A DNA stretch of 64,000 nucleotides from Paracoccus sp. R12_2 (GTDB taxonomy: Bacteria; Pseudomonadota; Alphaproteobacteria; Rhodobacterales; Rhodobacteraceae), in the NCBI RefSeq assembly GCF_017744015.1, contig NZ_JAGHRA010000005.1, positions 124,001-188,000 of the forward strand, given 5' to 3'. The notes under the pieces were generated by a model that did no database searches, had not been told where the DNA came from, and saw only the letters and a list, made by a program, of their open reading frames with translations. Within the stretch, counting starts at the first letter, position 1, and each line of letters opens with the position of its first letter. This document shows, one piece after another, positions 9,428 to 36,079 of this stretch. A program made the position numbers and the translations under genes.

Positions 9428-9467
9428 GGCGATATTCCTGAGTCTCTGGTCAAGAAAGGATGTCCCG

Positions 9468-10597: not shown

Positions 10598-10760
10598 CTA
10601 GTGAAAATGCGGAATGAAAGAAGGGTGCCTTTCGCTGGATTTTCAGGCATCAGGGATGACAACTGGACAGATAGCCGACGCAGGCCTATGTTCCGGCGAA
10701 TTCTGCCGGACCATCGGCATGGCAGGCCGGACCGAGTGTTTTGAATGGTAACGAACAGCC

Positions 10761-13157: not shown

Positions 13158-13161
<4 letters not shown>
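11398..13161 (+). CDS. kpsE: Capsule export inner-membrane co-polymerase, KpsE/CtrB-like
   Basis: A 587-residue polysaccharide co-polymerase (PCP-3/Wzz-like) linking the inner-membrane ABC exporter to the outer-membrane channel. Membrane helix 1 lies at about residues 230-252 (LFFVVLPTALAGWYYF), then a periplasmic domain with a long coiled coil (about 385-470), and a second helix at about 560-580 (LVALLIFSGIYLML). The roughly 220-residue N-terminus is Ala/Pro/charge-rich, looks disordered and is cytoplasmic; classical KpsE is only about 380 residues long. The ATG at 11398 is chosen over the upstream in-frame TTG. The stop overlaps kdsA by ATGA. Confidence 0.88.
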
Positions 13162-13996
<835 letters not shown>

Positions 13997-14000
<4 letters not shown>

Positions 14001-15331: not shown

Positions 15332-15335
15332 TGCC

Positions 15336-16520
15336 TCAGCCGTCGCGGGCGGCAATCCCCGCGGCGTGACCCGAGGCCCATGCCCATTGAAAATTATAGC
15401 CACCAAGCCAACCCGTCACGTCAACGCATTCGCCGATGAAGTGCAGGCCCGGCACCTTTCGCGCCTGAAGTGTTCGGGCGTCAAGGTCGCGGGTGTCCAC
15501 ACCGCCCAAAGTGACCTCGGCCGTGCGGTATCCTTCAGTGCCCACGGGGCGCAGCCGCCAGCGATTGATCCGGTCTTCCAGCGCCTCGAGCATCGAATTG
15601 GGCTGGTCGGCCAGCCGCCGTTCCGCCAGACCGGCTTCGGTCGCGATCGCATCTGCCAGGCGCTGCGGAAGCCATTCGCCCAAAGCTGCCGCGATCCTGA
15701 TCCGGCCCGCCTGCGCGCGCCGCCTTTTCAGTTCCTTGCCAATCGCGATGCCGGGCAGCAAGTCGATCTCCAGCACTTCGCCGGGCTGCCAGAAGCTGGA
15801 GATCTGCAGGATGACGGGGCCACTGAGACCGCGATGGGTGAACAGCAGAGCGTCCCGGAAATCGCCGCCACGGTGCCGTATCCGCGCCTCAAGCGAGACC
15901 CCCGCCAGCGGCCGGCACAGCGCAAGATCCTGTTCCGCAAATGTCATCGGAACCAGACCGGGCCGGGTCTCGACGCAGCGCAGACCGAAATCCTGGGCTA
16001 TTTCATAGGCCAGACCCGTCGCACCCATCTTGGGTATCGATTTTCCGCCGGTTGCGATGACCACCCGCGCGGCCGTCATTGCGCCGTTGGTGGTCTGCAT
16101 GGAAAACCGATCTCCGGCATGACGCAGACCCGACGCTGACGTGCCCAGACGCAGTTCGGCGCCCTGCATCCTGCGGATCAGCATGTCGGTGATCTGCGTC
16201 GCCCGCCCATCGCAGAATAGCTGCCCTTGGGTCTTTTCGTGCCAGGCGATCCCGGCCTGATCGACCAACCCGACGAAGTCCTCGGGCCGGTATCCTGAGA
16301 GGGCGCTGGCCGCGAATCTGGGATTGCCTGACAGGAACCTTTCCCTGGTCGTGGCAAGGTTGGTGAAATTGCAGCGCCCCCCGCCCGAGATGCGGATCTT
16401 TTCGGCGGGCTTTGATGCGTGATCCAGCACGACCACGCGCCGACCGTGCGCCATCGCCGATCCTGCGCAGAACAGCCCCGCCGCCCCGGCGCCCAGTACA
16501 AGTAGATCCGCGTGCTCCAT
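15336..16520 (-). CDS. NAD(P)/FAD-dependent oxidoreductase, BaiN/HI0933 (YhiN) family
   Basis: A 394-residue flavoprotein of the HI0933 family, whose physiological reaction is generally unknown. The N-terminal FAD motif is DLLVLGAGAAGLFCAGSAM, followed by KIRISGGGRCNFTN, both diagnostic. Near the C-terminus are AEVTLGGVDTRDLDARTLQ and GLHFIGECVDVTGWLGGYN. The reading frame continues upstream into the tRNA, but the ATG at 16520 starts right at the FAD motif (16541 is an alternative). It ends 4 bp from the convergent MscS stop and is divergent from tRNA-Gln. Confidence 0.92.
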   Translation of the reverse strand: MEHADLLVLGAGAAGLFCAGSAMAHGRRVVVLDHASKPAEKIRISGGGRCNFTNLATTRERFLSGNPRFAASALSGYRPEDFVGLVDQAGIAWHEKTQGQLFCDGRATQITDMLIRRMQGAELRLGTSASGLRHAGDRFSMQTTNGAMTAARVVIATGGKSIPKMGATGLAYEIAQDFGLRCVETRPGLVPMTFAEQDLALCRPLAGVSLEARIRHRGGDFRDALLFTHRGLSGPVILQISSFWQPGEVLEIDLLPGIAIGKELKRRRAQAGRIRIAAALGEWLPQRLADAIATEAGLAERRLADQPNSMLEALEDRINRWRLRPVGTEGYRTAEVTLGGVDTRDLDARTLQARKVPGLHFIGECVDVTGWLGGYNFQWAWASGHAAGIAARDG

Positions 16521-17571: not shown

Positions 17572-17609
17572 CGTGATAGATGCTTCATCGCAACCTAAAG
17601 GAGTCGTCC

Positions 17610-18797
17610 ATGTCCGCCCGCTTCTTCGCCGATCTGCAAACCACGCTTGCCGGGATCGAGGCCGACGGCCTGATGAAGCGCGAGCGCATGATTACGTCGG
17701 CCCAACGCGCGGAAATCGCTGTGGGCGGGCGGGATGTCATCAATCTTTGCGCCAATAATTATCTGGGTCTGGCGGATCATCCGGACCTGATCCGCGCCGC
17801 CCGCGAAGTGATGGACGACAAGGGTTTCGGCATGGCCTCGGTCCGCTTCATCTGCGGCACGCAGGACTTGCACCGCACGCTTGAGCAAAAGCTGGCGGCA
17901 TTCCTGCAAAAGGATGACTCGATCCTCTTCGCGGCCTGTTTCGATGCGAATGGCGGGTTGTTCGAACCGCTTCTTGGACCCGAGGATGCGATTGTGTCCG
18001 ACAGTCTGAACCATGCCTCGATCATCGATGGCATAAGGCTCTGCAAGGCACGGCGCTATCGCTATGCCAACAACGACATGAACGATCTTGAGGCGAAGCT
18101 GAAAGAGGCGCGTGACGGCGGGGCGCGACATGTGATGATCGCGACCGACGGCGTGTTCTCGATGGATGGCTATCTGGCGAACCTTCCTGAAATCACGCGG
18201 CTGGCCCGGACATACGATGCGGTCGTGATGGTGGACGATTGCCATGCCACCGGCTTCATGGGGCCGCGGGGTGCGGGGACGCCGGACCATTTTGGGGTAG
18301 AGGTGGATATTCTCAGCGGAACGCTGGGAAAGGCGCTTGGTGGGGCGATGGGGGGCTATATCGCCGGACCGCAGCCGGTCATCGACCTGTTGCGCCAACG
18401 CGCGCGACCGTATCTGTTTTCCAATGCGCTACCGCCCGCGATCGTTGCCGCCGGACTAGAGGCGCTGCGCCTGGTAGAGCAGGGCGGTGCATTGCGCCAA
18501 CAGCTGTTCGAGAATGCCGCGTATTGGCGCAAGGGGCTTGCCGATCTGGGCTTTGACCTGCTGCAGGGCGATCATCCGATCATTCCGGTGATGCTGGGCG
18601 AAGCGCCCTTGGCTCAAAAAATGGCCTCGGGCCTGTTCGACAAGGGCGTCTATGTCTCGGGCTTCTTCTATCCGGTGGTTCCGCATGGCCAGGCACGCAT
18701 TCGCACCCAGATGAACGCAGCCCTGACCCGCGCGCAGCTTGATCGCGCCCTGGCCGCCTTCGCCGAAGTGGGCCGAGATCTGGGGGTGATCCGATGA
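17610..18797 (+). CDS. kbl: Glycine C-acetyltransferase (2-amino-3-ketobutyrate CoA ligase)
   Basis: Cleaves 2-amino-3-ketobutyrate with CoA to glycine and acetyl-CoA, the second step of threonine degradation. It has 395 residues and belongs to the alpha-oxoamine synthase family. Signatures: [30 protein letters not shown], and the PLP lysine K241 in [15 protein letters not shown]. The ATG at 17610 has AAGGAG at 17598-17603. The stop overlaps tdh by ATGA, so the pair is translationally coupled and can channel the unstable intermediate. Confidence 0.96.
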
Positions 18798-19840
18798 GCT
18801 TGCCGAACACCATGAAGGCGCTGCAGAAATCCCGCCCCGAAGAGGGGCTGTGGATGGTGCAGGCGCCAGTGCCCGAGCTGGGCCCGGACGATGTGCTGAT
18901 CCGGATCAACGCGACCGGCATCTGCGGCACGGACATCCATATCTGGAACTGGGACGACTGGGCCGCGGCCACGGTGCCGGTGCCGATGATCACGGGTCAT
19001 GAATTTGCCGGCGAGATCGTCGAGATCGGTCGCAACGTGACCGGTCTGCAGATCGGCCAGCGCTGCTCCGGCGAGGGGCATGTGGTCGGAACCGAAAGCC
19101 GGCAGAGCCGATCGGGCAAGTTCCATCTGGATCCCGGCACGCGCGGCATCGGGGTGAACGTGCAGGGGGCCTTTGCCGAATATCTGAAGCTGCCTGCCTT
19201 CAACGTGGTGCCGCTGCCGGACGACATTCCCGACGAGATCGGCGCGATCCTCGACCCCTTGGGAAACGCGGTTCACACGGCGCTCAGCTTTGACCTTCTG
19301 GGCGAGGATGTGCTGATCACCGGGGCGGGGCCGATCGGCATCATGGCGGCCGCGGTGGCGCGCCACGCCGGTGCGCGGCATGTGGTGATCACCGACATCA
19401 ACGCCGACCGGCTGAATCTGGCAGAGCATGTCTGCAGGAACGTGCGCACGGTCGACGTGTCGCAGGAGGATCTGCGCGACGTGATCCGCGAGTTGGACAT
19501 GAAGCAGGGCTTCGACGTGGGGCTGGAAATGTCCGGCAGTCAGCAGGCGCTGGACCAGATGGTCGAAAGCCTGATCATGGGCGGCAAGATTGCGCTTCTG
19601 GGGATACCGCCGGGAAAGTCCCCGGTGGACTGGTCGCGCATCGTGTTCAAGGCGATCACCATCAAGGGCGTCTACGGGCGCGAGATGTTCGAGACCTGGT
19701 ACAAGATGATCGCCATGTTGCAGAACGGGCTGGATGTCAGCCGGGTGATCACGCACCGCATGTCGGTGGACGATTTCCGCGACGGCTTTGCGGCGATGAA
19801 ATCCGGCCAGTCCGGCAAGGTGGTCCTGAACTGGCGCTAG
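18794..19840 (+). CDS. tdh: L-threonine 3-dehydrogenase lacking the structural-zinc cysteines
   Basis: A 348-residue zinc-type medium-chain dehydrogenase that oxidises threonine to 2-amino-3-ketobutyrate. The catalytic zinc elements are present ([32 protein letters not shown]), as is the NAD motif [19 protein letters not shown]. The lobe that binds structural zinc in E. coli Tdh (CGHCRNCRGGRTHLC) reads [15 protein letters not shown] here, so all four cysteines are gone. The rest aligns well, including [13 protein letters not shown]. It is the second gene of kbl-tdh. Confidence 0.94.
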
Positions 19841-19916: not shown

Positions 19917-20381
19917 TTATCGCAACGGGATCGGGCGCTGTTCCTCGATCGCCTCCATCGCGAAATACGAGGTCACCGTTTCCAGCTCTATATCCGCGAT
20001 CAGCCGTTTATACACGTCGTCATAGCCTGCCATGTCCCTGACGACGATCTTCAGCAGATAATCGTATTCGCCTCCGATGCGGAAAAAGTCTATCACCTCG
20101 GGTATCGCCGAGACATGGACGCGGAACTTTCTCAGCCAGTCTGCCGAGTGATGTCGCGTCTTGATCAGCGAGAATACGACAAAACCGCCGCCCAGGCTGT
20201 TTCGATCGATCACCACGGTGCGGTTGCGGATCGCGCCCGAGGCTTCCAACGTCTTCAGCCTGCGCCAGCAGGCGTTCTGCGACAAACCTACCTTCTCGGC
20301 AAGCGCGCGCTGGGGCAGGCCAGCGTCACGCTGAAGTTCCTCGAGGATGCGAAAATCAAAATGATCCAGTTTATGTGCCAT
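19917..20381 (-). CDS. Lrp/AsnC-family transcriptional regulator
   Basis: A 154-residue feast/famine regulator: an N-terminal helix-turn-helix (about 8-60; LDHFDFRILEELQRDAGLPQ, SQNACWRRLKTLEASG) and a C-terminal RAM effector-binding domain (about 70-145). It is divergent from the class V PLP enzyme across a 102-bp AT-rich spacer, so it probably controls both itself and the amine/opine-like cluster. The effector is likely an amino acid or relative, by family habit. Confidence 0.92.
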   Translation of the reverse strand: MAHKLDHFDFRILEELQRDAGLPQRALAEKVGLSQNACWRRLKTLEASGAIRNRTVVIDRNSLGGGFVVFSLIKTRHHSADWLRKFRVHVSAIPEVIDFFRIGGEYDYLLKIVVRDMAGYDDVYKRLIADIELETVTSYFAMEAIEEQRPIPLR

Positions 20382-20483: not shown

Positions 20484-21944
20484 ATGACTGCGCTCGACGA
20501 TTTCAAGGCTGCGCTGAAAGGCGCTGACGTTCACGACCGGATCCGCGAAGGGTTGATCGGCGAGGATGTGCAGATCGACGGGCCGTTCGGGTCTAAGCCG
20601 TTGATCTATGCCGATTACGTCGCTTCGGGCCGCGCGCTGACGCAGGTAGAGGATTTCATCCGCGAACGGGTGCTGCCCTATTATGCCAACACGCATACGC
20701 AGGCGTCGTTCTGCGGCGAGTACATGACCAAGCTGCGCGAGGCCGCGCGCGCCGAAATCGCCCGCCTGACCGGCGCGGGCGCGGGAATGAGCGTGGTGTT
20801 CACCGGCTCGGGTTCTACCGCCGGAATCAACCGCATCGTCGGGCTGCTGGACTTGGCGCGGCTGGTTCGGGAAGGGCAGCGTGTCGTGGTTCTGACCGGC
20901 CCCTACGAGCACCATTCCAACATCCTTCCCTGGCGAGAAACCGGTGCAGAGGTGATCGAGATCGACGAGGCGCCCGGCGGCGGTGTGGATATGGGCGCGC
21001 TAGAGCGCAGCTTGCAGGCGGCGCAGGGTGCGGCGCGGATCGTCGGCACGTTCTCGGCCGCATCGAACGTGACCGGCATCCTGACCGATGCCGACGCGGT
21101 GACGCGCGTTCTGCGCGCGTATGGCGCGCTGGCGGTCTGGGACTACGGCTGTGCCGGCCCCTATTGCGAAATGGACATGAGGGCCGGAACCGATGAGCAG
21201 AAGGATGCCATCGTGTTTTCGGTTCACAAGTTTCCCGGCGGCCCCGGTTCCAGTGGCGTTGCCGTGATCCGCGACGATATCGCGCATCGCGCGACCCCGA
21301 CCCTTCCCGGCGGCGGCACGGTCAGTTTCGTATCGCCCTGGGGGCATGTGTATTCCGGCAGCCTGTCGGCGCGGGAAGAAGGCGGCACCCCGAACGTGAC
21401 CGGCGATATCCGCGCCGCGCTGGCGATGCTGGTCAAGGAAGCCTTGGGCCAGGACTGGCTGGATGCCCGGCAGGCGGAACTGCGGGCGCGGGCACTGAAG
21501 GTCTGGGAACGGAACGACCGGATCGAGTTGCTGGGCGTGCCGGATGCCGAGGCTTTGCCGATCTTCTCGTTTCGGGTGCGGGATGGGCAGGGCGGGTTGA
21601 TGCATCACCAGTTCTTCACCCGACTTCTCAGCGATCTGACCGGCGTGCAGGCCCGCGGCGGCTGTGCCTGTGCAGGCCCATACGGCCATCGGTTGCTGGG
21701 GTTGGGGCGCGCCGAATCCGACGCGACCATCGCCGCGCTGGAACAGGGCAGGGAAACCGCCAAACCCGGCTGGGTGCGGTTGAATCTTTCCGCACTGATG
21801 AGCGACAAGAAGGCGGATTTGATCATCGGGGCGGTGGACAATCTGGCGCGGATCGCCCCAGACTATGCAGTTCAGTATCGCGTCGATACCAGTACCGCCC
21901 GGTTCAACGCGGAAGGGTTTTCCAAGGATACGCTTGCTTCATGA
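20484..21944 (+). CDS. Class V PLP-dependent enzyme, cysteine-desulfurase-like
   Basis: A 486-residue aminotransferase class V fold. The N-terminal IYADYVASGRAL and YYANTHTQAS are typical of the family. The PLP lysine lies in VFSVHKFPGGPGSSGVAV. A Cys-rich loop, RGGCACAGPYGHR, sits where cysteine desulfurases carry their catalytic Cys. The protein is about 80 residues longer than IscS/SufS, with an added C-terminal part. No sulfur-carrier genes are nearby, so a lyase or transaminase role on an unusual amino acid is more likely. The ATG at 20484 has AGGGGA upstream. First gene of the cluster; ATGA overlap with the MFS gene. Confidence 0.82.
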   Translation: MTALDDFKAALKGADVHDRIREGLIGEDVQIDGPFGSKPLIYADYVASGRALTQVEDFIRERVLPYYANTHTQASFCGEYMTKLREAARAEIARLTGAGAGMSVVFTGSGSTAGINRIVGLLDLARLVREGQRVVVLTGPYEHHSNILPWRETGAEVIEIDEAPGGGVDMGALERSLQAAQGAARIVGTFSAASNVTGILTDADAVTRVLRAYGALAVWDYGCAGPYCEMDMRAGTDEQKDAIVFSVHKFPGGPGSSGVAVIRDDIAHRATPTLPGGGTVSFVSPWGHVYSGSLSAREEGGTPNVTGDIRAALAMLVKEALGQDWLDARQAELRARALKVWERNDRIELLGVPDAEALPIFSFRVRDGQGGLMHHQFFTRLLSDLTGVQARGGCACAGPYGHRLLGLGRAESDATIAALEQGRETAKPGWVRLNLSALMSDKKADLIIGAVDNLARIAPDYAVQYRVDTSTARFNAEGFSKDTLAS

Positions 21945-23287
21945 CCGACGCCCGGATCAGCCCTTTTGCCAATCCCGCCTTCCGCACGCTGTTTGCCGGG
22001 CAGGTCTTTTCGCTGCTGGCGATCGGCCTGATGACCGTGGCGATGTCGCTGGCGGCATACCGGATCGGCGGAACGGCGGCCGCCGGACAGATCCTGGGCT
22101 TTCTTCTGGCGGTGAAGATGGTTGCGTATGTCGGCGTCGCGCCGCTGGCCGCCGCGCTGTTTGCCGGGCGCAGTCGCAAGCGGGTGATGGTGGGGCTGGA
22201 CGTTGCACGGATGCTGCTGCTGCTGCCGATGGCGTTTGCCACTCAGACCTGGCAGATCGCCGCGCTGGCGCTGGTCTTCTTTGCCGTGTCGTCGGGTTTC
22301 ACGCCGATCTTCCAGTCGGTGATCCCCGATGTGCTGCCCGATGAACGTGCTTACAGCCGGGCGCTGGTCTGGTCGCGCATCGCATATACGCTGGAATCGG
22401 TACTGTCGCCAGTGCTTGCCGCCATGGTGCTGCAGGTCGTGGCAGGCAAGTATCTGTTCTGGGTAGCCGCGCTGGCTTTCATAGGTTCGATCGCCGCGCT
22501 TGTTATCACGCGCTTTCCGCCCGAGGGAAGCGACGGTCGCAAGGGATCATTCGTGTCACGGGCGTTTCGTGGGCTGTCGATTTATCGACGCACACCGCGC
22601 CTGCGCGGGCTTTTCCTGCTCAATTTCGCGCTGTCGCTCAGCATGGCGTGGGTGCTGGTCAATTCGGTGGTGCTGGCAGGGGCGCGTCTGGGCGATGCGG
22701 AAACGCATTTTCCCACCCTGATGGCTTTCTATGGCCTGGGCGCCGCGATTGGCGCGGTGCTGGTGCCGCGTCTGGTCGAGGCGCAGGGCGATCGCTGCGT
22801 GATGGCGTCGGGGGCCGTGCTGCACGCCGTGCTGGGATTGGGTATCGTGCTGCCGTTGGGCTATGCGGGATACATGGCGCTTTGGCTTGGCTTCGGGTTG
22901 GCCGCGTCGTTGGTGCTGACGCCGGGCGGGTTGGTGATCGCACGATCTGCCACGGCGAAGGACCGTCCGGCGGTGTTCGCGGCGCAGTTCTCGCTGTCGC
23001 ATGCGGGCTGGCTTCTGGCCTATCCCCTGGCCGGAGAGTTGGGGGCGCGTGCCGGTCTGGAGCCGGCGTTGCTGATCCTGTCGGGGATGACCGTCGGCGT
23101 AGCGGCCCTGGCGCTGCGGATCTGGCCCGCGACCGATCCGCTGACCCGCGAACATGATCACCCGGAACTGGCCCGCGATCATCCGCATCTGCGTCACACC
23201 CCAGCGCAGGGGCCGCGCCACCGGCATTCCCATGCCTTTTACATCGACGACCTCCACCCGGACTGGTCGGCCAGCAAGCCGGCCTGA
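21941..23287 (+). CDS. MFS transporter with histidine-rich C-terminal tail
   Basis: A 448-residue major facilitator with about 12 membrane helices, of the EntS/NreB-like type (N-terminal NPAFRTLFAGQVFSLLAIGL; QSVIPDVLPDERAYSRALVW). The C-terminal soluble tail of about 45 residues carries nine histidines within about 39 residues (EHDHPELARDHPHLRH, then RHRHSHAFYIDDLH). A His-rich tail on an MFS recalls the nickel exporter NreB and suggests metal binding or sensing. Coupled by ATGA to the class V enzyme upstream. Probably an exporter; the substrate is unknown. Confidence 0.85.
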   Translation: MTDARISPFANPAFRTLFAGQVFSLLAIGLMTVAMSLAAYRIGGTAAAGQILGFLLAVKMVAYVGVAPLAAALFAGRSRKRVMVGLDVARMLLLLPMAFATQTWQIAALALVFFAVSSGFTPIFQSVIPDVLPDERAYSRALVWSRIAYTLESVLSPVLAAMVLQVVAGKYLFWVAALAFIGSIAALVITRFPPEGSDGRKGSFVSRAFRGLSIYRRTPRLRGLFLLNFALSLSMAWVLVNSVVLAGARLGDAETHFPTLMAFYGLGAAIGAVLVPRLVEAQGDRCVMASGAVLHAVLGLGIVLPLGYAGYMALWLGFGLAASLVLTPGGLVIARSATAKDRPAVFAAQFSLSHAGWLLAYPLAGELGARAGLEPALLILSGMTVGVAALALRIWPATDPLTREHDHPELARDHPHLRHTPAQGPRHRHSHAFYIDDLHPDWSASKPA

Positions 23288-23327
23288 GCGTGCCGTGACC
23301 GCACCCCAAAGTTACAGGAATGACGAC

Positions 23328-24794
23328 ATGATACAGGAAACCGCTTCTCCGATCGACGGCCAGGGACTGCCCGTTCTGGAGGCGCGGCTGCGCGAGGATC
23401 TGAAATTCCTTTGCTGGCCGGGCAAGGACTGGGTGCCCGCCCGCGAAGGCGTTCACGACGTGGTCATCATCGGTGGTGGCATGTGCGGCATGGTGGCCTG
23501 GCTGGCGCTGAAGACCGGCGGCATCCACAATATGCGTGTGCTGGATCGCAGTCCCGAAGGGCTGGAAGGTCCCTGGCTGACCTATGCACGGATGGAGACT
23601 CTGCGTTCTCCGAAAGAGCTGACCGGCCCGGCCTACGGCCACGGCGCCCTAAGCTTTCAGGCATGGTATCGCGCACAGTTCGGCACCGAGAAATGGGGGC
23701 AACTGGACAAGATCCCGCGTCCGATGTGGATGCAGTACCTGAAATGGTACCGCAAGGTCCTTGAGATACCCACCGAGAACGGGGTGTCCGTCGATCTGGT
23801 CAGGCCCGAGGGCGATCTGCTGCGGCTGCATCTGTCGGGCGGGCCAGAGGCGTCGATCCTGACCCGCAAGCTGGTCTTCGCCACCGGGCGCGATGGGACC
23901 GGCCAGCCGAACATCCCGGGTTTCGTGCGGGATCTTGACCAGAAATACTGGGCGCACAGCGCGGATGATATCGACTTCGCCACGCTCAGGGGGAAGCGCG
24001 TGGCGGTGGTGGGGGTCGGGGCCTCGGCCGTGGACAATGCCGCCGAGGCGCTGGAGCATGGTGCCGCCGAGGTCCGCCACCTGATCCGCCGCAACGAAAT
24101 GCCCACCGTCAACAAGATGATGGGGATCGGTTCCTTCGGCTTCACTGCCGGTTATGCCAGCCTGCCGGATGAATGGCGCTGGCGCTTCATGCAGTATTCC
24201 TTTGCCACCCAGACGCCGCCGCCGCACGGTTCTACCAACAGGGTCAGCCGTCATCGAAACGCCTATTTCCACTTTGGCAAGGCGGTCGAGACGACGGTCG
24301 AGAGGAATGGCGCGGTCACCGTGGGCTTCGCGGACGGGACGTCCTACGAGGCCGATTTCGTGATCCTTGGGACAGGGTTTACCATCGACCCGCTGTCGCG
24401 GACCGAGTTCGGCGAGGCGGCGGGCGACATCCTGCTTTGGCAGGACGTCTATACGCCGCCGAAAGACGAACAATCCCGAGATCTGGGCCGGTTCCCCTAC
24501 CTGAACGACGATTTCACATTCCGCGAGAAAGAGCCGGGGCAGGCGCCCTGGCTGTCCAATGCTTACTGCTTCAACTATGGCGCTTCGGCCAGCCTTGGGA
24601 AAGTCAGCGGTGACATCCCGGGGATCTCGGAGGGGGCAGGCTGGATGGCGCGCGCGCTGGCGGCAAAGCTGTATGCCGAGGACGTTCAGCAGCATTGGCA
24701 GGCGATGATGGCCTATGACAAGCCCGAGCTGGACGGCAGCGAGTGGGTGCCGTCCCAGCTGTCCGGTGCAGAACAGAAGGGGGAAGTGGCGTGA
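23328..24794 (+). CDS. FAD/NAD(P)-binding oxidoreductase, class B monooxygenase-like
   Basis: A 488-residue flavoprotein with two Rossmann motifs: VVIIGGGMCGMVAW (FAD, about 46-59) and RVAVVGVGASAVDNAAEA (NADPH, about 225-242). The segment before the second motif (QKYWAHSADDIDFATLRGK) resembles the BVMO/FMO region but lacks a full FxGxxxH fingerprint. Likely an NADPH-dependent N- or C-hydroxylase, or a related oxidase. The ATG at 23328 follows a CAGGAA site. The stop overlaps the next gene's start (TGATG), placing it in the operon. Confidence 0.8.
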   Translation: MIQETASPIDGQGLPVLEARLREDLKFLCWPGKDWVPAREGVHDVVIIGGGMCGMVAWLALKTGGIHNMRVLDRSPEGLEGPWLTYARMETLRSPKELTGPAYGHGALSFQAWYRAQFGTEKWGQLDKIPRPMWMQYLKWYRKVLEIPTENGVSVDLVRPEGDLLRLHLSGGPEASILTRKLVFATGRDGTGQPNIPGFVRDLDQKYWAHSADDIDFATLRGKRVAVVGVGASAVDNAAEALEHGAAEVRHLIRRNEMPTVNKMMGIGSFGFTAGYASLPDEWRWRFMQYSFATQTPPPHGSTNRVSRHRNAYFHFGKAVETTVERNGAVTVGFADGTSYEADFVILGTGFTIDPLSRTEFGEAAGDILLWQDVYTPPKDEQSRDLGRFPYLNDDFTFREKEPGQAPWLSNAYCFNYGASASLGKVSGDIPGISEGAGWMARALAAKLYAEDVQQHWQAMMAYDKPELDGSEWVPSQLSGAEQKGEVA

Positions 24795-25267
24795 TGACGA
24801 TGGAAACAACCGCATTGACGGGCGCGGGGCTGACCGGCGTGCCCGGTGCAGCCGTCGAGGGACGCGCGAATATCTTCGAGATGACCCAGGCTGCCGAAGA
24901 AGCTGTCCTGCGGCCGAAAGATTGCGGGGCATGGTCGCACGAATTGCGCGCGGCGCTGGCGGCACGGATCGCGGTGCAGAACGACGAACACGCGCTGGCC
25001 GAGAGATATGCCGCCGGCGCGGGTGGTTTCGCGCCGCTGGCCGGACCGTCGCAGGACGGGGCCGCCGAGGGGCTTGCAGCCGTGCTGGCCTTCATGGACA
25101 AGGTCGCGGCCGACACGCGCAACGTCGCATCGACTGACATCGCGGGTTTGCAGGCGGCAGGGATCTTGGACGCGGATATCGTGCGGCTCTGCGAACTTAA
25201 CGCATTCCTTGCCTACCAGTTGCGGGTGGTTGCCGGTCTGCGCCTGATGAAAGGGGTCTTCGCATGA
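24794..25267 (+). CDS. CMD-domain protein without CxxC (first of a pair)
   Basis: A 157-residue helical protein. It resembles the family I remember as TIGR04029 (CMD domain protein, Avi_7170 family), which always sits next to a second CMD protein. It has only two scattered cysteines and no CxxC, so it is unlikely to be a peroxidase on its own and may pair with the next gene product. The start could be the ATG at 24794 or a GTG at 24791. It overlaps both neighbours by a few bases, showing tight coupling. Confidence 0.72.
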   Translation: MTMETTALTGAGLTGVPGAAVEGRANIFEMTQAAEEAVLRPKDCGAWSHELRAALAARIAVQNDEHALAERYAAGAGGFAPLAGPSQDGAAEGLAAVLAFMDKVAADTRNVASTDIAGLQAAGILDADIVRLCELNAFLAYQLRVVAGLRLMKGVFA

Positions 25268-25854
25268 CCAAGGTGATCACGAAGTTCACCCGCAACGTGC
25301 CGCATTGGCAACCGCGCGTGAAGCCCGTCGACCTGAAGGAGGCCAGCGACGAGCAGCTTGACGCACTGAAGGTCACGCCGTCGAACACCAAGGTGTCGGA
25401 ATATGTCCTGACGCTGGCGCACGACGTTGAAAGCCTGAAGGTCCGATCGCCTCTGTTCAACGCGATCATGTATGACAAGGGCGGGATGAGCCGGGCCGAG
25501 CGTGAACTGGGTGCGCTTGCGGCCTCGATGGTCAATCACTGCATCTATTGCGCCGCGGTGCACGCTGCGCGGCATGCGCAGCTGGAAAAATCCACGGAAG
25601 TGACCGACAGGCTGTTCCGGGACGGTGCCGATGCCGATTTGGGGCCGCGTGATCGCGCGATCTTCGATTTTGCCGTGGCGTTGTCCAGGACGCCGTCGCA
25701 GGCCGGGCCGGAAGAGATGGCTGCCCTGAAAGATGCGGGTCTGGATGAGACCGAAGTTCTGGACCTTATCCTGTCGGCATCGCTGTTTGGCTGGGCCAAC
25801 CGGTTGATGCATGTTCTGGGCGATCCGGTGCGGTTGCCGGAAACCGCCGCATAA
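25264..25854 (+). CDS. AhpD-like peroxidase-related CMD protein (second of a pair)
   Basis: A 196-residue CMD/AhpD-fold protein with the redox motif HCIYCAAVH (C93, C96, H100) preceded by conserved glutamates in SRAEREL (E79, E81). This is the AhpD catalytic arrangement. It resembles, from memory, the TIGR04030 family (Avi_7169), the standard partner of the previous gene. It may detoxify peroxide or organic hydroperoxide made by the flavoprotein of the same operon; that role is inferred. ATGA overlap with the upstream gene. Confidence 0.82.
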   Translation: MTKVITKFTRNVPHWQPRVKPVDLKEASDEQLDALKVTPSNTKVSEYVLTLAHDVESLKVRSPLFNAIMYDKGGMSRAERELGALAASMVNHCIYCAAVHAARHAQLEKSTEVTDRLFRDGADADLGPRDRAIFDFAVALSRTPSQAGPEEMAALKDAGLDETEVLDLILSASLFGWANRLMHVLGDPVRLPETAA

Positions 25855-25862
25855 AAATCTAC

Positions 25863-25886
25863 TATAACGGAAATTTTTCTGTCATA
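25863..25886. promoter_or_regulatory. Operator-like inverted repeat before the opine-dehydrogenase gene
   Basis: TATAACGGAAA (25863-25873) and TTTCTGTCATA (25876-25886) form an imperfect inverted repeat, 9 of 11 positions, with a 2-nt spacer, in an AT-rich 80-bp gap. A GTCATA also occurs in the lrp/class V intergenic spacer at about 20450-20456. It may be the binding site of the Lrp-type regulator at an internal promoter. This is tentative. Confidence 0.35.
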
Positions 25887-25934
25887 ATATCATACGAACG
25901 ATGAAACAGTGACAGGGCGAATCAGGGAGACGAC

Positions 25935-27047
25935 GTGGGAAAGACGGTAGGATTGGCGGGCGCGGGCTCGATTGCGTTCGGAACCGCGGCGGTGCTGCAC
26001 AAGGCGGGTCATGACCCGATGCTGTGGTCGCCTTCGGGTGATGGCACCTCAGGTCTGAGCGGTGGCGCGTCTCTGCGCGCGGTGGGTGCCTTGGAAACGA
26101 CGTTCTCCCCTCGCATCGCCAGCGACGCGGCGACGCTGGCGCGCGAGAATGACGTTCTGATCATCACCTTGCCCGGCTATGGCCACAAGACCGTGCTGGA
26201 TGCCCTGGCGCCGCATATCGAGAACCGTCACCATGTGATCGTGTCATCCCATGCCTCGTTGGGGGCGGTGTACCTGATGCAGCTTCTGGCCGAACGCGGC
26301 GTCGTCGCGCCGATCACCGCATGGGGCACGACGATCTGCACCGGGCGGCGGCAATCGGGCACCGAGGTCAAGGTGAACACCGTGCGCAGCCGCGTCGATC
26401 TTTGTACCGTGCCCGAAGACCGCTCTGCCGAGGCGCTGGCGCTGTGTCGGGAACTGTTCGGCGACCGGTTCCAGCCGCGTGACGGGCTGCTGGCGATATC
26501 ATTGTCGAACCTCAATCCCCAGAACCACATGGGCATCGCGCTGGGAAACATCACCCGGATGGAGCGCGGCGAAACATGGTCGCAGGGTCAGAACGTCACC
26601 CCGAAGGTGGGACGCCTTCTGGAGGAACTGGACCGCGAACGGCTGCAGATCGCGCAGGCGCTGGGGCTGGAAGTCAGGACGATCTTCGAACATTTCCACC
26701 TGTCCTTTCACGTTCCGGTCGCCTCGATCTCTGAGATGAACCAGCAGATGCACGCCCAAGGCAACGGAGGCACCGGACCCGATACCGCCGACAGCCGCTA
26801 TGTCACCGAGGACGTGCCCTACGGGCTGGTCGTGACTGCCGCGCTGGGTCGGCTGGCTGGCCATCCCGCGCCGTTGCACGAGGCGGGTATTAGCATCTTT
26901 TCGGCCATGTATGGTCGGGATTTCGAGGCCGAGAACCAGATCCTGGCGGCGCTGGAGCTGGATCGGTTCAGCCTTGAAGACTTGAAGGGGGCGGCCAGAA
27001 CGGGCCTTTTGCGCCAGCCTGTCAGCGCATCAAGCGCGTCGGACTAG
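25935..27047 (+). CDS. NAD/NADP octopine/nopaline-dehydrogenase-family enzyme
   Basis: A 370-residue enzyme with an N-terminal Rossmann motif (VGLAGAGSIAFGTAAVL) and the C-terminal helical domain of opine dehydrogenases (SNLNPQNHMGIALG with the expected catalytic His; TEDVPYGLVVTAALGRLAG). Opine dehydrogenases reversibly join an amino acid and a 2-keto acid into a secondary-amine dicarboxylate. GTG start at 25935 after AGGGAGA. It sits between the CMD pair and a PotD-type importer, the transporter class that also carries mannopine in Agrobacterium. The substrate is unknown. Confidence 0.85.
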   Translation: MGKTVGLAGAGSIAFGTAAVLHKAGHDPMLWSPSGDGTSGLSGGASLRAVGALETTFSPRIASDAATLARENDVLIITLPGYGHKTVLDALAPHIENRHHVIVSSHASLGAVYLMQLLAERGVVAPITAWGTTICTGRRQSGTEVKVNTVRSRVDLCTVPEDRSAEALALCRELFGDRFQPRDGLLAISLSNLNPQNHMGIALGNITRMERGETWSQGQNVTPKVGRLLEELDRERLQIAQALGLEVRTIFEHFHLSFHVPVASISEMNQQMHAQGNGGTGPDTADSRYVTEDVPYGLVVTAALGRLAGHPAPLHEAGISIFSAMYGRDFEAENQILAALELDRFSLEDLKGAARTGLLRQPVSASSASD

Positions 27048-27089: not shown

Positions 27090-28199
27090 ATGTCGAAACT
27101 GATCTTCAATCGTCGCCGGTTTCTGGGAACGACCGTCGCGACCGGCGCGGCGCTGGCATCGCCCGCCTATTTGCGCCGTGCCTCTGCCCAGACCGGGGGC
27201 GAGGTGAACATCTGGACCTACAATGATTTCGTGCCCACGGCCTTCCGCGAGCAGTTCGAGGCCGAGACCGGCATCAAGGTCAACATCCGCTTGGTGGATG
27301 ACCAGGGAAAGCAGTTCAACCTGCTGGCGGCCGAACAGCCGAACCCGACCGTCGATATCATGACCGTTGCCGGGCACCGATTCCTGCAATTCATCGAAAG
27401 CGACCTGCTGGCGCCGCTGGACACCGGACGCCTAAAGAACTGGGACAAGATCAACCCGACCTTCTCGGAAAGCGACTGGTCGACGATCAACGGCAACAAA
27501 TGGGGCGCGCCGATCCTGTCCGGGATGGAGGTTTTGTCCTACAACACCGAAATCGTCAGCGAGGAGGAGGCCCAGACCTGGGACACGCTCTTCAGCGAAC
27601 AATACAAGGGCCAGACCGCCTATATCATCCAGGACATGATGTCGATCATCATGCTGAAGATGGGCTATGACGGCAACATGGTCGAGTATCTCGACGACCC
27701 CGACAAGGCCGCGCGGATCGTCGAGGAAGCCAAGGCCTTCCTGATCGAGAAGAAGCCGTTGGTGCGCAAATATTACGACGGCGGTGCCGAGTTCCAGCAG
27801 ATGATGGTCAACCAGGACATCGTGCTGGGCCACAGCTGGAACGGACCTGCCGCGGCGCTGATCAATGACGGCTTCCCGCTGGCGATGAGCATTCCGCGCG
27901 AAGGTTCCTACGGTTTTGTCTACACGTTCAACATCGCGAACAATGCGCCGAACGGCGACAATGCCTATCTCTTCCTTGACGCGCTGCTGTCCTCGCCCGA
28001 AATCGGCGCGGCGATGACGAAGGCTTCGGGCTTCATCTCGACCTACAAGGATGTGTCCCAGCATCTGAGCGAGCTGGAGCGGAAATCCACCTCTTTCCCG
28101 GACGAGCAGCTGGCCAACATGCAGTTCTTCCGTGCCGAGGCGAACGAGCTGAAATACAGCCTCGTCGATCCGGCCGTCGAGGCGATCAAGGCCGCCTGA
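27090..28199 (+). CDS. PotD/MotA-type ABC transporter solute-binding protein
   Basis: A 369-residue periplasmic binding protein with a Tat-like signal (NRRRFLGTTVATGAALASP) cleaved after ASAQ at about residue 34. The mature start GEVNIWTYNDFVPTAFREQF is typical of spermidine/putrescine-type receptors. A strong AAGGAG lies upstream. It is followed by a stem-loop, then two permease genes and an ATPase gene. Polyamines, opines of the mannopine type or other amines are the likely ligands. Confidence 0.92.
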   Translation: MSKLIFNRRRFLGTTVATGAALASPAYLRRASAQTGGEVNIWTYNDFVPTAFREQFEAETGIKVNIRLVDDQGKQFNLLAAEQPNPTVDIMTVAGHRFLQFIESDLLAPLDTGRLKNWDKINPTFSESDWSTINGNKWGAPILSGMEVLSYNTEIVSEEEAQTWDTLFSEQYKGQTAYIIQDMMSIIMLKMGYDGNMVEYLDDPDKAARIVEEAKAFLIEKKPLVRKYYDGGAEFQQMMVNQDIVLGHSWNGPAAALINDGFPLAMSIPREGSYGFVYTFNIANNAPNGDNAYLFLDALLSSPEIGAAMTKASGFISTYKDVSQHLSELERKSTSFPDEQLANMQFFRAEANELKYSLVDPAVEAIKAA

Positions 28200-28275: not shown

Positions 28276-29262
28276 ATGACGTATGACGCATCCGCACAGC
28301 AGGACGGGCCAGCCATGACAGAAGACAAATCGGGACGCACATTCTGGGCCCGGTTGGCCTCGTGGGGACCGTATCACGCGTTGATGCGGCTGACGACGGC
28401 TTCACCCCGGCGCCAGTTCCTGATCCTTGCGGTGTTTCCCATCCTCTGGGTACTGAGCCAGCATCTTGGCCCGATGCTGCAGATGCTGCGGGTGTCGCTG
28501 ACGGATGCCTATCCGGTCGCGCCCGGCGTCGAGCAGCATTTCACGCTGGACAACTATGGCCGCTTCTTTGGGGACAGCATCTTCTGGATGCCGTTCTTCC
28601 GCACCCTGATCTTTGCCGGTGTGTTCACCTTCTGCACGCTGATCATCACCTATCCGGTCGCGTATTTTCTGGCGCGGCATGTCAGCCGCAAGAACCAGAT
28701 GCTGCTGCTTCTGCTGCTGCTGATCCCGTTCTGGGTCGGCGAGATCGTGCGCACCTACGCGATCATGATCTTGCTGGGCAATACCGGGGCGGTGAACCTG
28801 GCGCTGAAGACGCTGGGTCTGATCGATCGGCCGATCCCCTTCATGTATACCAGCTTTTCGATGGGCGTCGGCATCGTGTACCTGACCGCGCTTTACATGC
28901 TGCTGCCGCTGTATTCATCGCTGGAGAAGCTGCCCAAAAGCATGAACGAGGCCGCCGCCGATCTGGGCGCGGGCGCCTGGACCCGGTTCCGTCGCGTGTC
29001 GCTGCCGCTGACCATCGAGGGGATTTCGTCGGGCTGCACGCTGGTGTTTCTGATCTCGACAGGGTTCTACGCGACGCCGGTCCTTCTGGGCGGGCCGTCC
29101 ACCACGGTCTTTGCCGAAACCATCGCAGGCTTCTTCCATGTGGCGGGCGATGAATGGCCCACCGGTGCGGCGTTTGCCACGATCATGTTCGCGGCCGCGC
29201 TGGCAATCACGGCGACGTTCCAGAAGCTGATGAACGCGCTGCGCAAGGGAGACAAGAAATGA
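28276..29262 (+). CDS. ABC transporter permease, PotB/PotH-like
   Basis: A 328-residue inner-membrane subunit with about six helices; the ATPase-contacting EAA loop is NEAAADLGAGAWTRFRRVSLP. The ATG at 28276 is chosen; a TTG at 28261 and an ATG at 28315 are in frame and possible, because no site is strong. It pairs with the next permease (4-bp overlap) and the ATPase at 30066 to form the importer. Confidence 0.9.
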   Translation: MTYDASAQQDGPAMTEDKSGRTFWARLASWGPYHALMRLTTASPRRQFLILAVFPILWVLSQHLGPMLQMLRVSLTDAYPVAPGVEQHFTLDNYGRFFGDSIFWMPFFRTLIFAGVFTFCTLIITYPVAYFLARHVSRKNQMLLLLLLLIPFWVGEIVRTYAIMILLGNTGAVNLALKTLGLIDRPIPFMYTSFSMGVGIVYLTALYMLLPLYSSLEKLPKSMNEAAADLGAGAWTRFRRVSLPLTIEGISSGCTLVFLISTGFYATPVLLGGPSTTVFAETIAGFFHVAGDEWPTGAAFATIMFAAALAITATFQKLMNALRKGDKK

Positions 29263-30062
29263 ACGACCGCCCCGAAGTTTTCCGCGGCAACCGGATCTTC
29301 CTTGCCTGCATCTACTGGGCTTTCGTCCTTTATGTCTTCGTGCCGCTGATCCTGATGGTGCTGATGGGCTTCAAGGACAGCAATTTCATCGGTTTCCCAA
29401 TCAAGTCCTGGACGTTGGACTGGTACACCGGTGTCTTTGCCGATGCCGAAGTGCTGTCGACCTTCGGCTATTCGGTAGCCATCGCGGTGCTGTCGACGCT
29501 GATTTCGATCTTCGTCGGCGCGTGGATCGCAGTGCTTCTGGAAGGGCGCAAGTTCTGGGGCCGCACATTGCTGTTCGGCTTGGCGGTCCTGCCGGCGCTG
29601 GTGCCGGGCATCATCTCGGCGATCGCCTTTCGCATCTACGCCCGCTGGCTGGGAATCGAGCCCGGCATGGGCGCGATCGTCTGGGCGCATGCGGTGCATA
29701 ATGTTCCCTTCGTGGTGCTGGTGGTGATGGCGCGGCTGTCGACACTGCCCAGAAGTCAGATCGAGGCAGCGCGCGACTTGGGCGCCGACCCGCTGATCTC
29801 TTTCATCCGCGTCACGCTGCCCTATCTGGTGCCCGCGATCCTTGGCGCCTCTATCTTCTGCCTGCTTCTGTCTTTCGACGATTTCGTGCGCTCTTTCTTC
29901 CTGGGCGGCTACGAACCCACGCTGCCGGTGCTGATCTTTGCCAAGCTTCGTTCCGGGATGAGCCCCGAGATCAACGCCATCGCGACCGTCGCGCTGTTCC
30001 TGACCGCCGCCATCGGCATCTGGGCAGAGCGCTTCACCCGCCGCATGAACAAGGAAAACTGA
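29259..30062 (+). CDS. ABC transporter permease, PotC/PotI-like
   Basis: A 267-residue second permease of the importer, with EAA loop IEAARDLGADPLISFIRVTLP and about six helices. The ATG at 29259 follows AAGGGAG and overlaps the upstream stop codon. A longer frame upstream is only the shadow of the preceding gene. Confidence 0.92.
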   Translation: MNDRPEVFRGNRIFLACIYWAFVLYVFVPLILMVLMGFKDSNFIGFPIKSWTLDWYTGVFADAEVLSTFGYSVAIAVLSTLISIFVGAWIAVLLEGRKFWGRTLLFGLAVLPALVPGIISAIAFRIYARWLGIEPGMGAIVWAHAVHNVPFVVLVVMARLSTLPRSQIEAARDLGADPLISFIRVTLPYLVPAILGASIFCLLLSFDDFVRSFFLGGYEPTLPVLIFAKLRSGMSPEINAIATVALFLTAAIGIWAERFTRRMNKEN

Positions 30063-30065
30063 GCC

Positions 30066-31151
30066 ATGACCGACCAGACGACACCGCTTGTCCGCATCGA
30101 GGGGCTGTCCAAGCATTTCGGCGAAACCGTTGCGCTAAACGATCTGACGCTGGACATCGCGCGGGGCGAGTTCGTCACTTTCCTTGGCCCCTCGGGGTGC
30201 GGCAAGTCCACCACGCTGCGCATTCTGGGCGGGTTCGAGCGTCCGACGACCGGGCGGGTGATCCTTGATGGCGTGGACGTGACCAAACAACCGCCCGAAA
30301 AGCGCCATGTGAACATGGTGTTTCAGGACTATGCACTTTTCCCGCACATGACCGTCGCGCAGAATGTCGCCTTCGGGTTGGAACTGAAGGGCATGCGGAA
30401 ATCAGAGATCCAGCGTCGCTCGGCAGAGATCATGTCCTTCCTGGAACTGGAATCCTATGCGACGCGCTATCCGGCGCAGCTTTCGGGTGGGCAGCGGCAG
30501 CGTGTGGCGCTGGCGCGCGCGCTGGCACCTGACCCGGCGCTGCTGTTGCTGGACGAACCTTTGGGCGCGCTGGACGCCAAGCTGCGCGGCCAGGTTCAGC
30601 AAGAGCTGAAATCGATCCAGCGCCGCACCCACAAGACGTTCTTCTTCGTGACGCATGACCAGGAAGAGGCGTTGACCATGTCCGACCGGATCGTGGTGAT
30701 GAACAAGGGCAAGGTCGAGCAGGACGGCACCCCGGAAGAGCTGTATTTTCGCCCTGCCAGCCGTTTCGTGGCCGAATTCATTGGCGAAACCAATCTTCTG
30801 TCTGGCCGGATGCGCGGCAGCGAGGGCGACAAGATCGTCATGGACTGGGAAGGCGCGACCCTGCTTGGCAAGGCGCCCGCAGGTGTGCCTGGCGAGGGCC
30901 AGCCGATCACCGCTTCGGTCAGGCTGGAAAAGCTGGGGTTCAGCGCCGAGCGTCCGCAGACCGCGAATGCGGTGCAAGGGCGCGTGGTGGCCAAAACCTT
31001 CCTGGGCAGCCGTATGGCCATGCAGATCGCTGTCGGCGAGAACGGCGCGCTGCTGAAGGCCTATGTGGACGCCGATACCGGCCAGTCGTTGGGTAGCGAC
31101 CCCGTCTGGATCGGCTGGGAGCCGGACAATATGGCCGTCCTGAACGACTGA
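30066..31151 (+). CDS. ABC transporter ATP-binding protein, PotA-like
   Basis: A 361-residue ATPase of the importer. Walker A is LGPSGCGKSTTL, the signature [15 protein letters not shown], Walker B LLLLDEPLGALD, and the H-loop FFVTHDQEEA. A C-terminal TOBE domain (about 285-355) is present, as in PotA/UgpC. Starts 3 bp after the permease stop. Last gene of the cluster, followed by a strong terminator. Confidence 0.95.
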   Translation: MTDQTTPLVRIEGLSKHFGETVALNDLTLDIARGEFVTFLGPSGCGKSTTLRILGGFERPTTGRVILDGVDVTKQPPEKRHVNMVFQDYALFPHMTVAQNVAFGLELKGMRKSEIQRRSAEIMSFLELESYATRYPAQLSGGQRQRVALARALAPDPALLLLDEPLGALDAKLRGQVQQELKSIQRRTHKTFFFVTHDQEEALTMSDRIVVMNKGKVEQDGTPEELYFRPASRFVAEFIGETNLLSGRMRGSEGDKIVMDWEGATLLGKAPAGVPGEGQPITASVRLEKLGFSAERPQTANAVQGRVVAKTFLGSRMAMQIAVGENGALLKAYVDADTGQSLGSDPVWIGWEPDNMAVLND

Positions 31152-31447: not shown

Positions 31448-31487
31448 TATGGAAGTATGGCGTAGCTTCTGCGCAAGGGAGAATACC

Positions 31488-32168
31488 GTGGATCAGCCGT
31501 CATTCATCGTTCCGTCCAGTTCGACTGCGCAACAGGTCTATGACTGGTTGCATGATCGCATCCTGCGCGGCGATCTGGCGCCGGGTGCGCGGCTGAGCGA
31601 GACCGAGATTGCCGGTCAGGTCGGCGTCAGCCGCCAGCCCGTGCGCGAGGCCTTCATCCGCCTGACAGCGGCCGGACTGGCCGAGGTTCGACCTCAGCGC
31701 GGCACCTTTATCGGGCGGATTTCCGTGGGCGCCGTGCTGTCGGCGCGATTGATCCGCGAAGCTGTCGAAAGCGATCTGATCAGGATGGTGTCGGCCACCA
31801 CCTCGCCCGCGCTTCTGGCGCAGCTTGATCAGCAGCTTGAAGCGCAGCGAGAGGCCAGCGCGCGCCAGCATGTCGAGGATTTCATTGCGCTGGACGATCA
31901 GTTCCATCGCAGCCTTGCCAAGGCGGCAGGCCACGCGGATGTGTGGGACGTGCTTGAGGGGCTGAAGTCCCAGATGAACCGTCTGCGCTATATCACCGCG
32001 CGGGTCTTCGATCATCAGAAACTGCTGGATCAGCACACCGCCATCGTCGAAGCGCTGCGCGAGGGCCATGCAGATCGCGCGGAACAGGCGATGCGACTGC
32101 ACCTGCGCGAATTGTTGACCGATCTTCCCGAGATCGCGCGCAACAAGCCGGAATTCTTCACGAAATAG
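31488..32168 (+). CDS. GntR-family regulator with FCD domain (UxuR-like role)
   Basis: A 226-residue FadR-subfamily repressor. The winged helix (about 12-75) includes ETEIAGQVGVSRQPVREAF; the FCD ligand domain (about 90-215) has the metal-binding pattern DDQFHR ... HTAIVEALREGHADRAEQAM. GTG start at 31488 after GGGAGA; ATGs at 31449 and 31457 have no good site. It is the first gene before the sugar-acid TRAP and uxu genes, and by analogy with UxuR/ExuR it should respond to a hexuronate intermediate. Confidence 0.9.
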   Translation: MDQPSFIVPSSSTAQQVYDWLHDRILRGDLAPGARLSETEIAGQVGVSRQPVREAFIRLTAAGLAEVRPQRGTFIGRISVGAVLSARLIREAVESDLIRMVSATTSPALLAQLDQQLEAQREASARQHVEDFIALDDQFHRSLAKAAGHADVWDVLEGLKSQMNRLRYITARVFDHQKLLDQHTAIVEALREGHADRAEQAMRLHLRELLTDLPEIARNKPEFFTK

Positions 32169-32191
32169 ACGCTATCACCAGGAGGAGGATG

Positions 32192-33178: not shown

Positions 33179-33179
33179 T

Positions 33180-33215
33180 CTGAACTGCGGTGGCCGACGG
33201 GCCACCGCAGTTCAG
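33180..33215 (+). terminator. Perfect 16-bp stem-loop directly after dctP
   Basis: CTGAACTGCGGTGGCC (33180-33195) and GGCCACCGCAGTTCAG (33200-33215) are exact complements with a 4-nt loop, beginning 2 nt after the stop codon. No T-run follows. The position between receptor and permease suggests mRNA stabilisation or partial termination that keeps receptor in excess. Confidence 0.7.
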
Positions 33216-33250
33216 CCGCCGACAAGAGGGTATCCGGCGAAGGAGATGAC

Positions 33251-35025: not shown

Positions 35026-35026
35026 T

Positions 35027-36067: not shown

Positions 36068-36079
36068 CAGGAGGGGCGG

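Follow-up and report, generated by a model that had tools for sequence, protein, structure and literature searches.

An NreB-type transporter with a histidine-rich tail in a putative opine-catabolic operon of Paracoccus sp. R12_2

Background

Transporters of the NreB type and the gene clusters for opine metallophores are among the closest described systems to a group of genes found in a 64,000-nucleotide stretch of Paracoccus sp. R12_2 DNA (contig NZ_JAGHRA010000005.1, positions 124,001 to 188,000; this whole stretch is called the window below), in which a gene for a transporter of the major facilitator superfamily (MFS) with a histidine-rich C-terminal tail is accompanied by a gene for an opine dehydrogenase (ODH). 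NreB proteins are known from Achromobacter/Cupriavidus 31A and Streptomyces, among others. One report describes NreB as conferring nickel resistance and as having a His-rich C-terminus (PMC4186839), and another defines opine zincophore clusters by CntM with a gene for nicotianamine synthase (NAS; CntL), as a rule immediately upstream (PMC7438024). An earlier note on this DNA had remarked on the tail, likened it to that of NreB and proposed a link to opine-type metallophores. A literature search, whose coverage of subscription papers was poor, returned no published description of this gene set.

Here we propose, tentatively, that these genes form an operon for the uptake and breakdown of an opine-like compound, with a sulfur branch, and that the MFS protein would most likely export a metal of the nickel/cobalt class derived from a chelating substrate.

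Results

The MFS gene (21941-23287, plus strand) encodes a protein of 448 amino acids that matches Pfam MFS_1 and bears its His-rich tail at residues ~399-448, as seen by homology, alignment, tree and model. Nine of the 12 His of the protein lie in residues 405-439 and three in residues 1-398, in agreement with the nine His in about 39 residues of the earlier note, which had also located the span from the MFS to the dehydrogenase gene correctly (21941-27047). The binomial probability of at least nine His in 39 residues was 1e-11 when calculated with the His frequency of the protein body and 1e-7 with a frequency of 2.1%. Conservation is the more telling argument for the tail at the level of sequence, since H405, H407, H414, H416, H429, H431, H439 and D436 were invariant in 47/47 NreB-family sequences, which are the distinct copies in the fetched loci, a subset of all matches. 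Of these, 23 were operon-type copies, defined as those adjoining the enzyme module described below or its pyridoxal-phosphate (PLP) enzyme gene, and 24 were others. Additional tail His were present in operon-type copies at position 427 (16/23) and at position 434 (15/23; Tyr in the window protein).

The window protein was ~46% identical, over 98% of its length and with the tail included, to annotated or metal-linked NreB proteins. These relatives (pKAZ5, K. pneumoniae and S. meliloti) adjoin genes for an NreA-like/RcnR-type repressor together with genes for a cation diffusion facilitator (CDF), a P-type ATPase or a Ni/Co transporter. The comparison of tails upheld the resemblance to NreB that the earlier note had seen, and supported homology of the MFS tail to that of NreB-type metal exporters beyond a shared composition. 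On sequence grounds, the window protein is a full-length homologue of NreB-type nickel exporters and may share their metal export.

An AlphaFold model of the MFS protein, made with 17 sequences, had a mean predicted local distance difference test (pLDDT) score of 88.5. Residues 401-440 of the tail were predicted to be ordered (10-residue blocks with pLDDT 75-82, strands at 401-405 and 428-433), and the final eight residues were not (pLDDT 52). The model contained 12 helices of at least 14 residues, one of which (12-73) could make two spans and another of which (204-217) is short, and a crude hydropathy analysis gave only 10 hydrophobic segments; we take this as a 12-span protein according to the model. 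The termini of MFS proteins lie on the cytoplasmic side. A fold search was uninformative as to the substrate, since the MFS transporters that it retrieved have many different ones.

MFS homologues (E 1e-20) were detected in 73/149 genomes of the order and in 676 plasmid records, 639 of which covered at least 80% of the query; two partial matches of 51-53% (G055 and G133) were outside the compared locus set. In a maximum-likelihood tree the 23 operon-type rows fell on one side of a 100/100 branch. An RcnR-type repressor gene within 1.5 kb was found beside 0/23 operon-type copies versus 10/24 other NreB copies, many of which had only ~1.5 kb of flank, and an RcnR-type match was present in 1/101 cluster loci (R. 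etli L054 only). The clade and the missing repressors together place the window MFS in a distinct NreB-type subfamily with a repressor-free setting and, because no RcnR/NreA-type repressor gene adjoins it, we do not class the locus as an nre nickel-resistance determinant. The genome has a second NreB (G000:C48:7881-9197), with 66% identity to that of S. meliloti, which is one of the ten and adjoins an RcnR homologue and has a P1B-type ATPase gene near.

The MFS gene is part of a set of 11 genes, encoding an Lrp regulator, the PLP enzyme, the MFS protein, a flavin adenine dinucleotide (FAD) enzyme, two carboxymuconolactone decarboxylase-domain proteins (CMD1 and CMD2), the ODH, a substrate-binding protein (SBP), two permeases and an ATPase of an ATP-binding cassette (ABC) importer. 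Its ATG overlaps the stop codon of the upstream PLP gene (ATGA), so that the unit begins upstream of the 21941-27047 span, and it extends to the ABC ATPase gene (31151). The whole set was found in 7/7 fetched loci having a full-length MFS of at least 51% identity, and in 0/5 chromosomal loci with 44-49% homologues (the paralogue of the same genome included) and 0/3 plasmid NreB loci.

When genome contigs were scanned for the PLP family, among the best 80 of 588 loci the MFS gene was present in 17/21 loci with the module (FAD, CMD2, ODH and SBP genes) versus 1/59 without it (L081; Fisher p 1e-12, uncorrected for kinship), six of the 59 module-free loci ending within 3 kb of the PLP gene. An Lrp homologue was found in 19/21 of the module loci. 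A larger set of 98 loci was composed of these 80 and of plasmid and other loci, some of them fetched via MFS or ODH, with three duplicates removed. Here the MFS gene occurred in 22/31 loci with the module versus 1/67 without: 21/26 with module and PLP gene, 1/5 with module and no PLP gene, 1/66 with PLP gene and no module, and 0/1 with neither (L057, which has FAD, CMD2 and ODH genes but an amino-acid-type importer, was scored as without module). The association of an opine dehydrogenase with the MFS, first noticed in this single sequence, is therefore borne out across loci.

The gene order was kept in Rhodobacterales, in an Ahrensia metagenome-assembled genome and in Granulosicoccus. Within the genus, an MFS of at least 75% identity was present in 2/61 genomes (the own genome included) and an ODH of at least 66% in 3/61, indicating that the operon is patchy. 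Such patchiness would fit a chance neighbourhood of MFS and ODH genes, an explanation to which we give almost no credence: it is contradicted by the conservation of the gene set in 7/7 loci and by the linkage in 17/21 versus 1/59 loci, and it fits poorly with the conserved order and with the retention of the MFS gene beside the module where lrp and PLP genes are gone. The latter was seen in G551 (L177), with the order kbl-tdh-MFS-FAD-CMD1-CMD2-ODH-SBP-permeases-ATPase and neither lrp nor PLP gene, and in whose genome no PLP homologue was found at E 1e-30. The same locus ruled out that the MFS is tied only to the PLP enzyme, as the ATGA overlap and L081 had suggested.

Several observations weigh against the explanation proposed here. 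The MFS gene was absent from 9/31 module loci, five of them with the PLP gene (Aliiroseovarius L059 and L060, Salipiger thiooxidans L065, Rhizobium albus L116, and L176 of G580) and four without (L047, L049-L051), so the MFS is not essential to the pathway; L081, with PLP and MFS genes and no module, and L177, with module and MFS and no PLP gene, imply that neither enzyme set strictly dictates its presence. Because these loci are related to one another and the MFS arose once, the linkage may go back to one assembly event. Neither a metal repressor nor any other metal gene was found among the genes of the operon. Moreover, 16 positions were nearly fixed within, but different between, operon-type and other NreB proteins (D150T, R331L, Y107A, S268A and C356G among them), and differences such as the first three suggest that the substrate of the MFS may differ.

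The main rival is export of an organic compound, in which an MFS recruited from the NreB family would now expel an amino acid, a thiol or an oxo acid that is a product of the pathway or inhibits it, and the tail would only sense metal or couple transport to it. We consider it a serious possibility, of lower probability than metal export. It would account for the 0/23 repressors and for the 16 changed positions, and a MATE-type exporter gene, as would be fitting if the exported product were organic, was found in L047 and L176 (3' of the ATPase gene in the latter), both of which have no NreB-type MFS. Two loci are, however, a thin basis, and it is harder to reconcile with this rival that the seven His ligands of the family are kept in 23/23 operon-type copies, with the further His at positions 427 and 434. 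Metal export is our tentative preference.

The ODH gene (25935-27047, plus strand) encodes a protein matching PF02317 (E 6.8e-38), whose closest solved relative was N-(1-D-carboxylethyl)-L-norvaline dehydrogenase (CENDH, 1bg6; E 3.2e-47); the match to octopine dehydrogenase was weak (2.8e-05). Residues H198 and D293 aligned with His202 and Asp297 of 1bg6, presumably its catalytic dyad, and were invariant in 14/14 sequences. PF10100, the CntM-type family, was not matched by the window ODH at E <= 1; among 14 ODH homologues PF02317 was present in 14/14 and PF10100 did not appear in the capped list of 25 families. A whole-genome search for PF10100 gave 0 matches with its control also silent, so the weight rests on the family scan of the ODH protein itself. 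A search for NAS (PF03059), with a control that was detected in 1/14 genomes, gave 0 matches in this genome.

Systems for import and export were present within six open reading frames of the ODH (a PotABCD-like ABC importer and the MFS). The observation in the earlier note that dehydrogenase, MFS exporter and ABC importer are all there in type stands, and it is what a pathway of staphylopine/pseudopaline type would require; the families, however, are other than those of Cnt, the ODH being of PF02317 and the importer of PotABCD type. With no NAS found in the genome, there is no support for a metallophore cluster of the staphylopine type and, taken with the family of the ODH, this led us to reject the pathway, which we regard as highly improbable. 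The proposed link to opine-type metallophores was accordingly not sustained, the linked genes also being of catabolic kinds and the regulators next to the clusters belonging to the Lrp, LysR or XRE type instead of being metal repressors, and the reservations attached to it held good: a missing NAS-like gene, a dehydrogenase outside the metallophore subfamily (its nearest relative being CENDH), and no TonB receptor among the genes of the operon, the rest of the genome not having been searched for one.

A possible operator, the inverted repeat TAACGGA-N6-TCTGTCA, lies 5' of the dehydrogenase gene (25865-25884). A repeat of the consensus TAACGGA-N6-TCCGTTA starts 64-70 bp 5' of the ODH gene with at most three mismatches in 6/24 upstream regions (window, L035, L059, L061, L063 and L064), for each of which 0/200 shuffles matched equally well; the other 18 regions, among them those of the close L060, L062 and L177, had at least four mismatches. 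Judging from the sequence, a second transcription unit may be controlled from this repeat.

The FAD enzyme gene (23328-24794, plus strand) encodes an FAD/NAD(P)H flavoprotein with matches to PF07992 (1e-16) and PF13434 (3.6e-9). Sequence searches retrieved mixed flavoproteins. With an AlphaFold model of mean pLDDT 78.7, the first 43 Foldseek rows were N-hydroxylating monooxygenases (E 1.4e-17 to 3.7e-15), counting DesB, which we take to be an N-hydroxylase; identities were 11-18% and TM-scores by query 0.54-0.61. The model predicts the PvdA/SidA-like fold of N-hydroxylating monooxygenases for this enzyme, with amine N-hydroxylation as a putative activity. A sulfoxidising flavin-containing monooxygenase, suggested by weak sequence matches, was displaced by the fold result. 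Class-wide, FAD relatives were found at 33 places in 28/385 genomes; at the 20 fetched places, out of 32 outside the own genome, the relatives were distant (36-49% identity) and had no CMD2, ODH, PLP or MFS homologue beside them except a CMD2 near the FAD gene in L141.

Two further readings involve a chelator. N-hydroxyiminodicarboxylate is the kind of ligand found in amavadin, and the thiazolidine of cysteine and pyruvate is a nickel chelator in NikA-type proteins. In the broader of these readings, which we hold to be unlikely, ODH and the N-hydroxylase-like flavoenzyme would handle an N-hydroxylated or cysteine-derived opine chelator, made or harvested, outside the staphylopine family, and the MFS would move metal. 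In the narrower, which we think more doubtful again, ODH and FAD enzyme would make an N-hydroxylated opine chelator that leaves the cell through the MFS and returns through the ABC system, which would make it a new type of metallophore. One conserved operon indeed unites the ODH, an enzyme with N-hydroxylase fold, a relative of metal-linked exporters and an importer. Against this, the linked kbl/tdh, SufS-like and Blh-like/TauE genes are of degradative kinds, the regulators are of Lrp/LysR types and not metal regulators, related modules (L049-L051) have no NreB-type MFS, and the operon shows no gene for the TonB receptor mentioned above.

The PLP gene (20484-21944, plus strand) encodes a class-V enzyme related to SufS-like (group II) cysteine desulfurases (PF00266, 4.1e-39; TIGR01979, 6.3e-36, below cut-off); its score of 124.1 bits against a SufS cut-off of 475.1 makes it SufS-like, not SufS. 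K251 and C398, numbered from 20478 since the query started two codons upstream, were invariant in 15/15 sequences and aligned with cysteine desulfurase, and we take them to be the PLP Lys and the persulfide Cys; in the alignment with cysteine desulfurase 8d8s, the second Cys of the CAC motif fell on the Cys of RAGHHC. CMD1 (24788-25267, plus strand) is Avi_7170-like and without CxxC (TIGR04029, 3.1e-14, below cut-off), and CMD2 (25264-25854, plus strand) is a CMD/AhpD-like peroxidase-related protein with a CIYC motif (TIGR01926, 1.9e-57, above cut-off; PF02627).

The importer genes, all on the plus strand, encode a PotD/PotF-like substrate-binding protein (27090-28199; SBP_bac_8, by profile matches), permeases of PotB/PotH type (28276-29262; top match PRK09497, 7.5e-54, below cut-off) and PotC/PotI type (29259-30062; top match PRK09500, 9.3e-44, below cut-off), and a PotA-like ATPase (30066-31151; TIGR01187, 5.5e-109). 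Only the ATPase passed the polyamine-family cut-off, the other components being below theirs. The queries for the FAD enzyme and the PotC/PotI-like permease started one codon upstream of the starts given here. Assignment of importer specificity from PotD pocket residues was set aside because the alignment was too gapped.

On the minus strand, divergent from the operon, an Lrp/AsnC-family regulator is encoded at 19917-20381 (NCBIfam PRK11169, 1.5e-21, below cut-off). At lower coordinates, on the plus strand, are kbl (17580-18797; NCBIfam PRK06939) and tdh (18794-19840; NCBIfam PRK05396), both above cut-off. These enzymes convert threonine to glycine and acetyl-CoA. The pair was found in 13/33 ODH loci versus 2/65 loci without ODH, in the same gene run as the cluster in L177 and L116. 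On the Agrobacterium plasmid pAt1D1609b (L048, 6547-15282), kbl is directly 3' of ODH in a minimal relative of the cluster containing LysR, ABC importer, ODH, kbl and a gene of the NAD-dependent epimerase/dehydratase family. The last could be a threonine dehydrogenase of short-chain dehydrogenase type, and the arrangement suggests a threonine-like amino-acid product of the ODH at this locus.

Next after the PLP gene came, in R. etli and R. tumorigenes, genes for a metallo-beta-lactamase-fold (MBL) protein and an annotated TauE/SafE protein and, in Aminobacter, the MBL gene. The MBL protein of R. tumorigenes matched Blh in its dioxygenase half and scored below the cut-off for the full length, and the rhizobial MBL proteins are probably persulfide-dioxygenase-like (Blh-like) by sequence. 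In L115 the genes ahead of the PLP gene encode hydantoinase/oxoprolinase A and B and an importer with a binding protein. Taken together, kbl/tdh, the SufS-like PLP enzyme, the Blh-like MBL and TauE genes and the neighbours of the L115 type point to breakdown of amino acids and sulfur compounds.

An arrangement of importer ATPase, hydantoinase/oxoprolinase A and B and permeases, then PLP gene, was observed at ~1800-13700 in L109, L115 and L121 (Poseidonocella, Sulfitobacter and Roseovarius), the hydantoinase/oxoprolinase genes being identified by Pfam scan in L115 and likened by gene length and position in the other two; after the PLP gene came a FAD homologue in L109 and L115, and glyoxalase-like and DAO genes in L121. 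In L054 (R. etli pRetMIM1d, 9383-16343), Lrp-PLP-MBL-TauE genes were directly followed by genes for CDF, a metal-sensing repressor, YqaA and a Ni/Co transporter; this is another PLP locus adjoining nickel/cobalt-type genes, with an exporter family different from the MFS. Downstream of the operon, at 31449-38742 of the window, genes for a GntR-type regulator, DctP and DctM of a tripartite ATP-independent periplasmic transporter, an L-idonate 5-dehydrogenase-like protein, UxuA and a mannitol/fructuronate dehydrogenase family protein resemble a separate sugar-acid cluster.

Discussion

Homology, tail conservation, clade and linkage were observed directly, and from them we infer the following course of events. 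The importer, PotABCD-type by homology, would take up an opine-like N-carboxyalkyl amino acid or a close relative, which the FAD enzyme, the CMD/AhpD pair and the ODH may split into an amino acid and an oxo acid. Where present, Kbl/Tdh and the SufS-like PLP enzyme, judging from their co-localisation, would process the amino-acid and sulfur products. The NreB-type MFS would most likely export a divalent metal (Ni/Co class) that comes in with the chelating substrate or is released from it or from its thiol products.

Should the MFS export metal, a lineage of nickel exporters would have moved from the control of metal stress into an operon for the breakdown of nutrients. This would imply that natural metal-chelating opines are taken up and their metal then disposed of, would give a function to the FAD-CMD-ODH module of Rhodobacterales and rhizobia, and would connect opine, sulfur and metal metabolism. 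If it exports an organic compound, the family would caution against reading the substrate from a conserved His tail alone.

Compared with known systems, the window MFS shares with the nickel exporter NreB of S. meliloti, Klebsiella and pKAZ5 homology over the full length and the same pattern of His and Asp in the tail, but it differs in its separate clade, its 16 near-fixed changes, the lack of an RcnR/NreA repressor, and its place in a catabolic-looking operon beside Lrp. The clusters for opine metallophores (staphylopine, pseudopaline and yersinopine; CntLM) likewise have ODH, MFS and ABC importer side by side; in contrast to them, the window has PF02317 instead of PF10100, an importer of PotABCD type and degradative partners, and no NAS was found. 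CENDH (1bg6) is a full-length profile match to the ODH, but a distant one, and the operon of the window ODH also encodes an importer. The fold and PF13434 are common to the FAD enzyme and the N-hydroxylating monooxygenases PvdA, SidA, KtzI and DesB, the enzyme of the window being linked to degradative genes.

Rhizobial Lrp-PLP-MBL(-TauE) and FAD-CMD-CMD-ODH-ABC clusters, on plasmids of R. tumorigenes, R. etli, Aminobacter, S. meliloti, Nitratireductor and A. fabrum, have homologous PLP, FAD, CMD1/2 and ODH genes and, in several cases, the same PotABCD-type importer. These loci (L047-L058) differ in having no NreB-type MFS, some of them have an amino-acid-type importer, Blh-like MBL/TauE or MATE genes, and LysR is mostly found beside the FAD module. 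What is new in the window with respect to all these systems is the combination of genes and the operon-type subfamily of the MFS, not the His tail.

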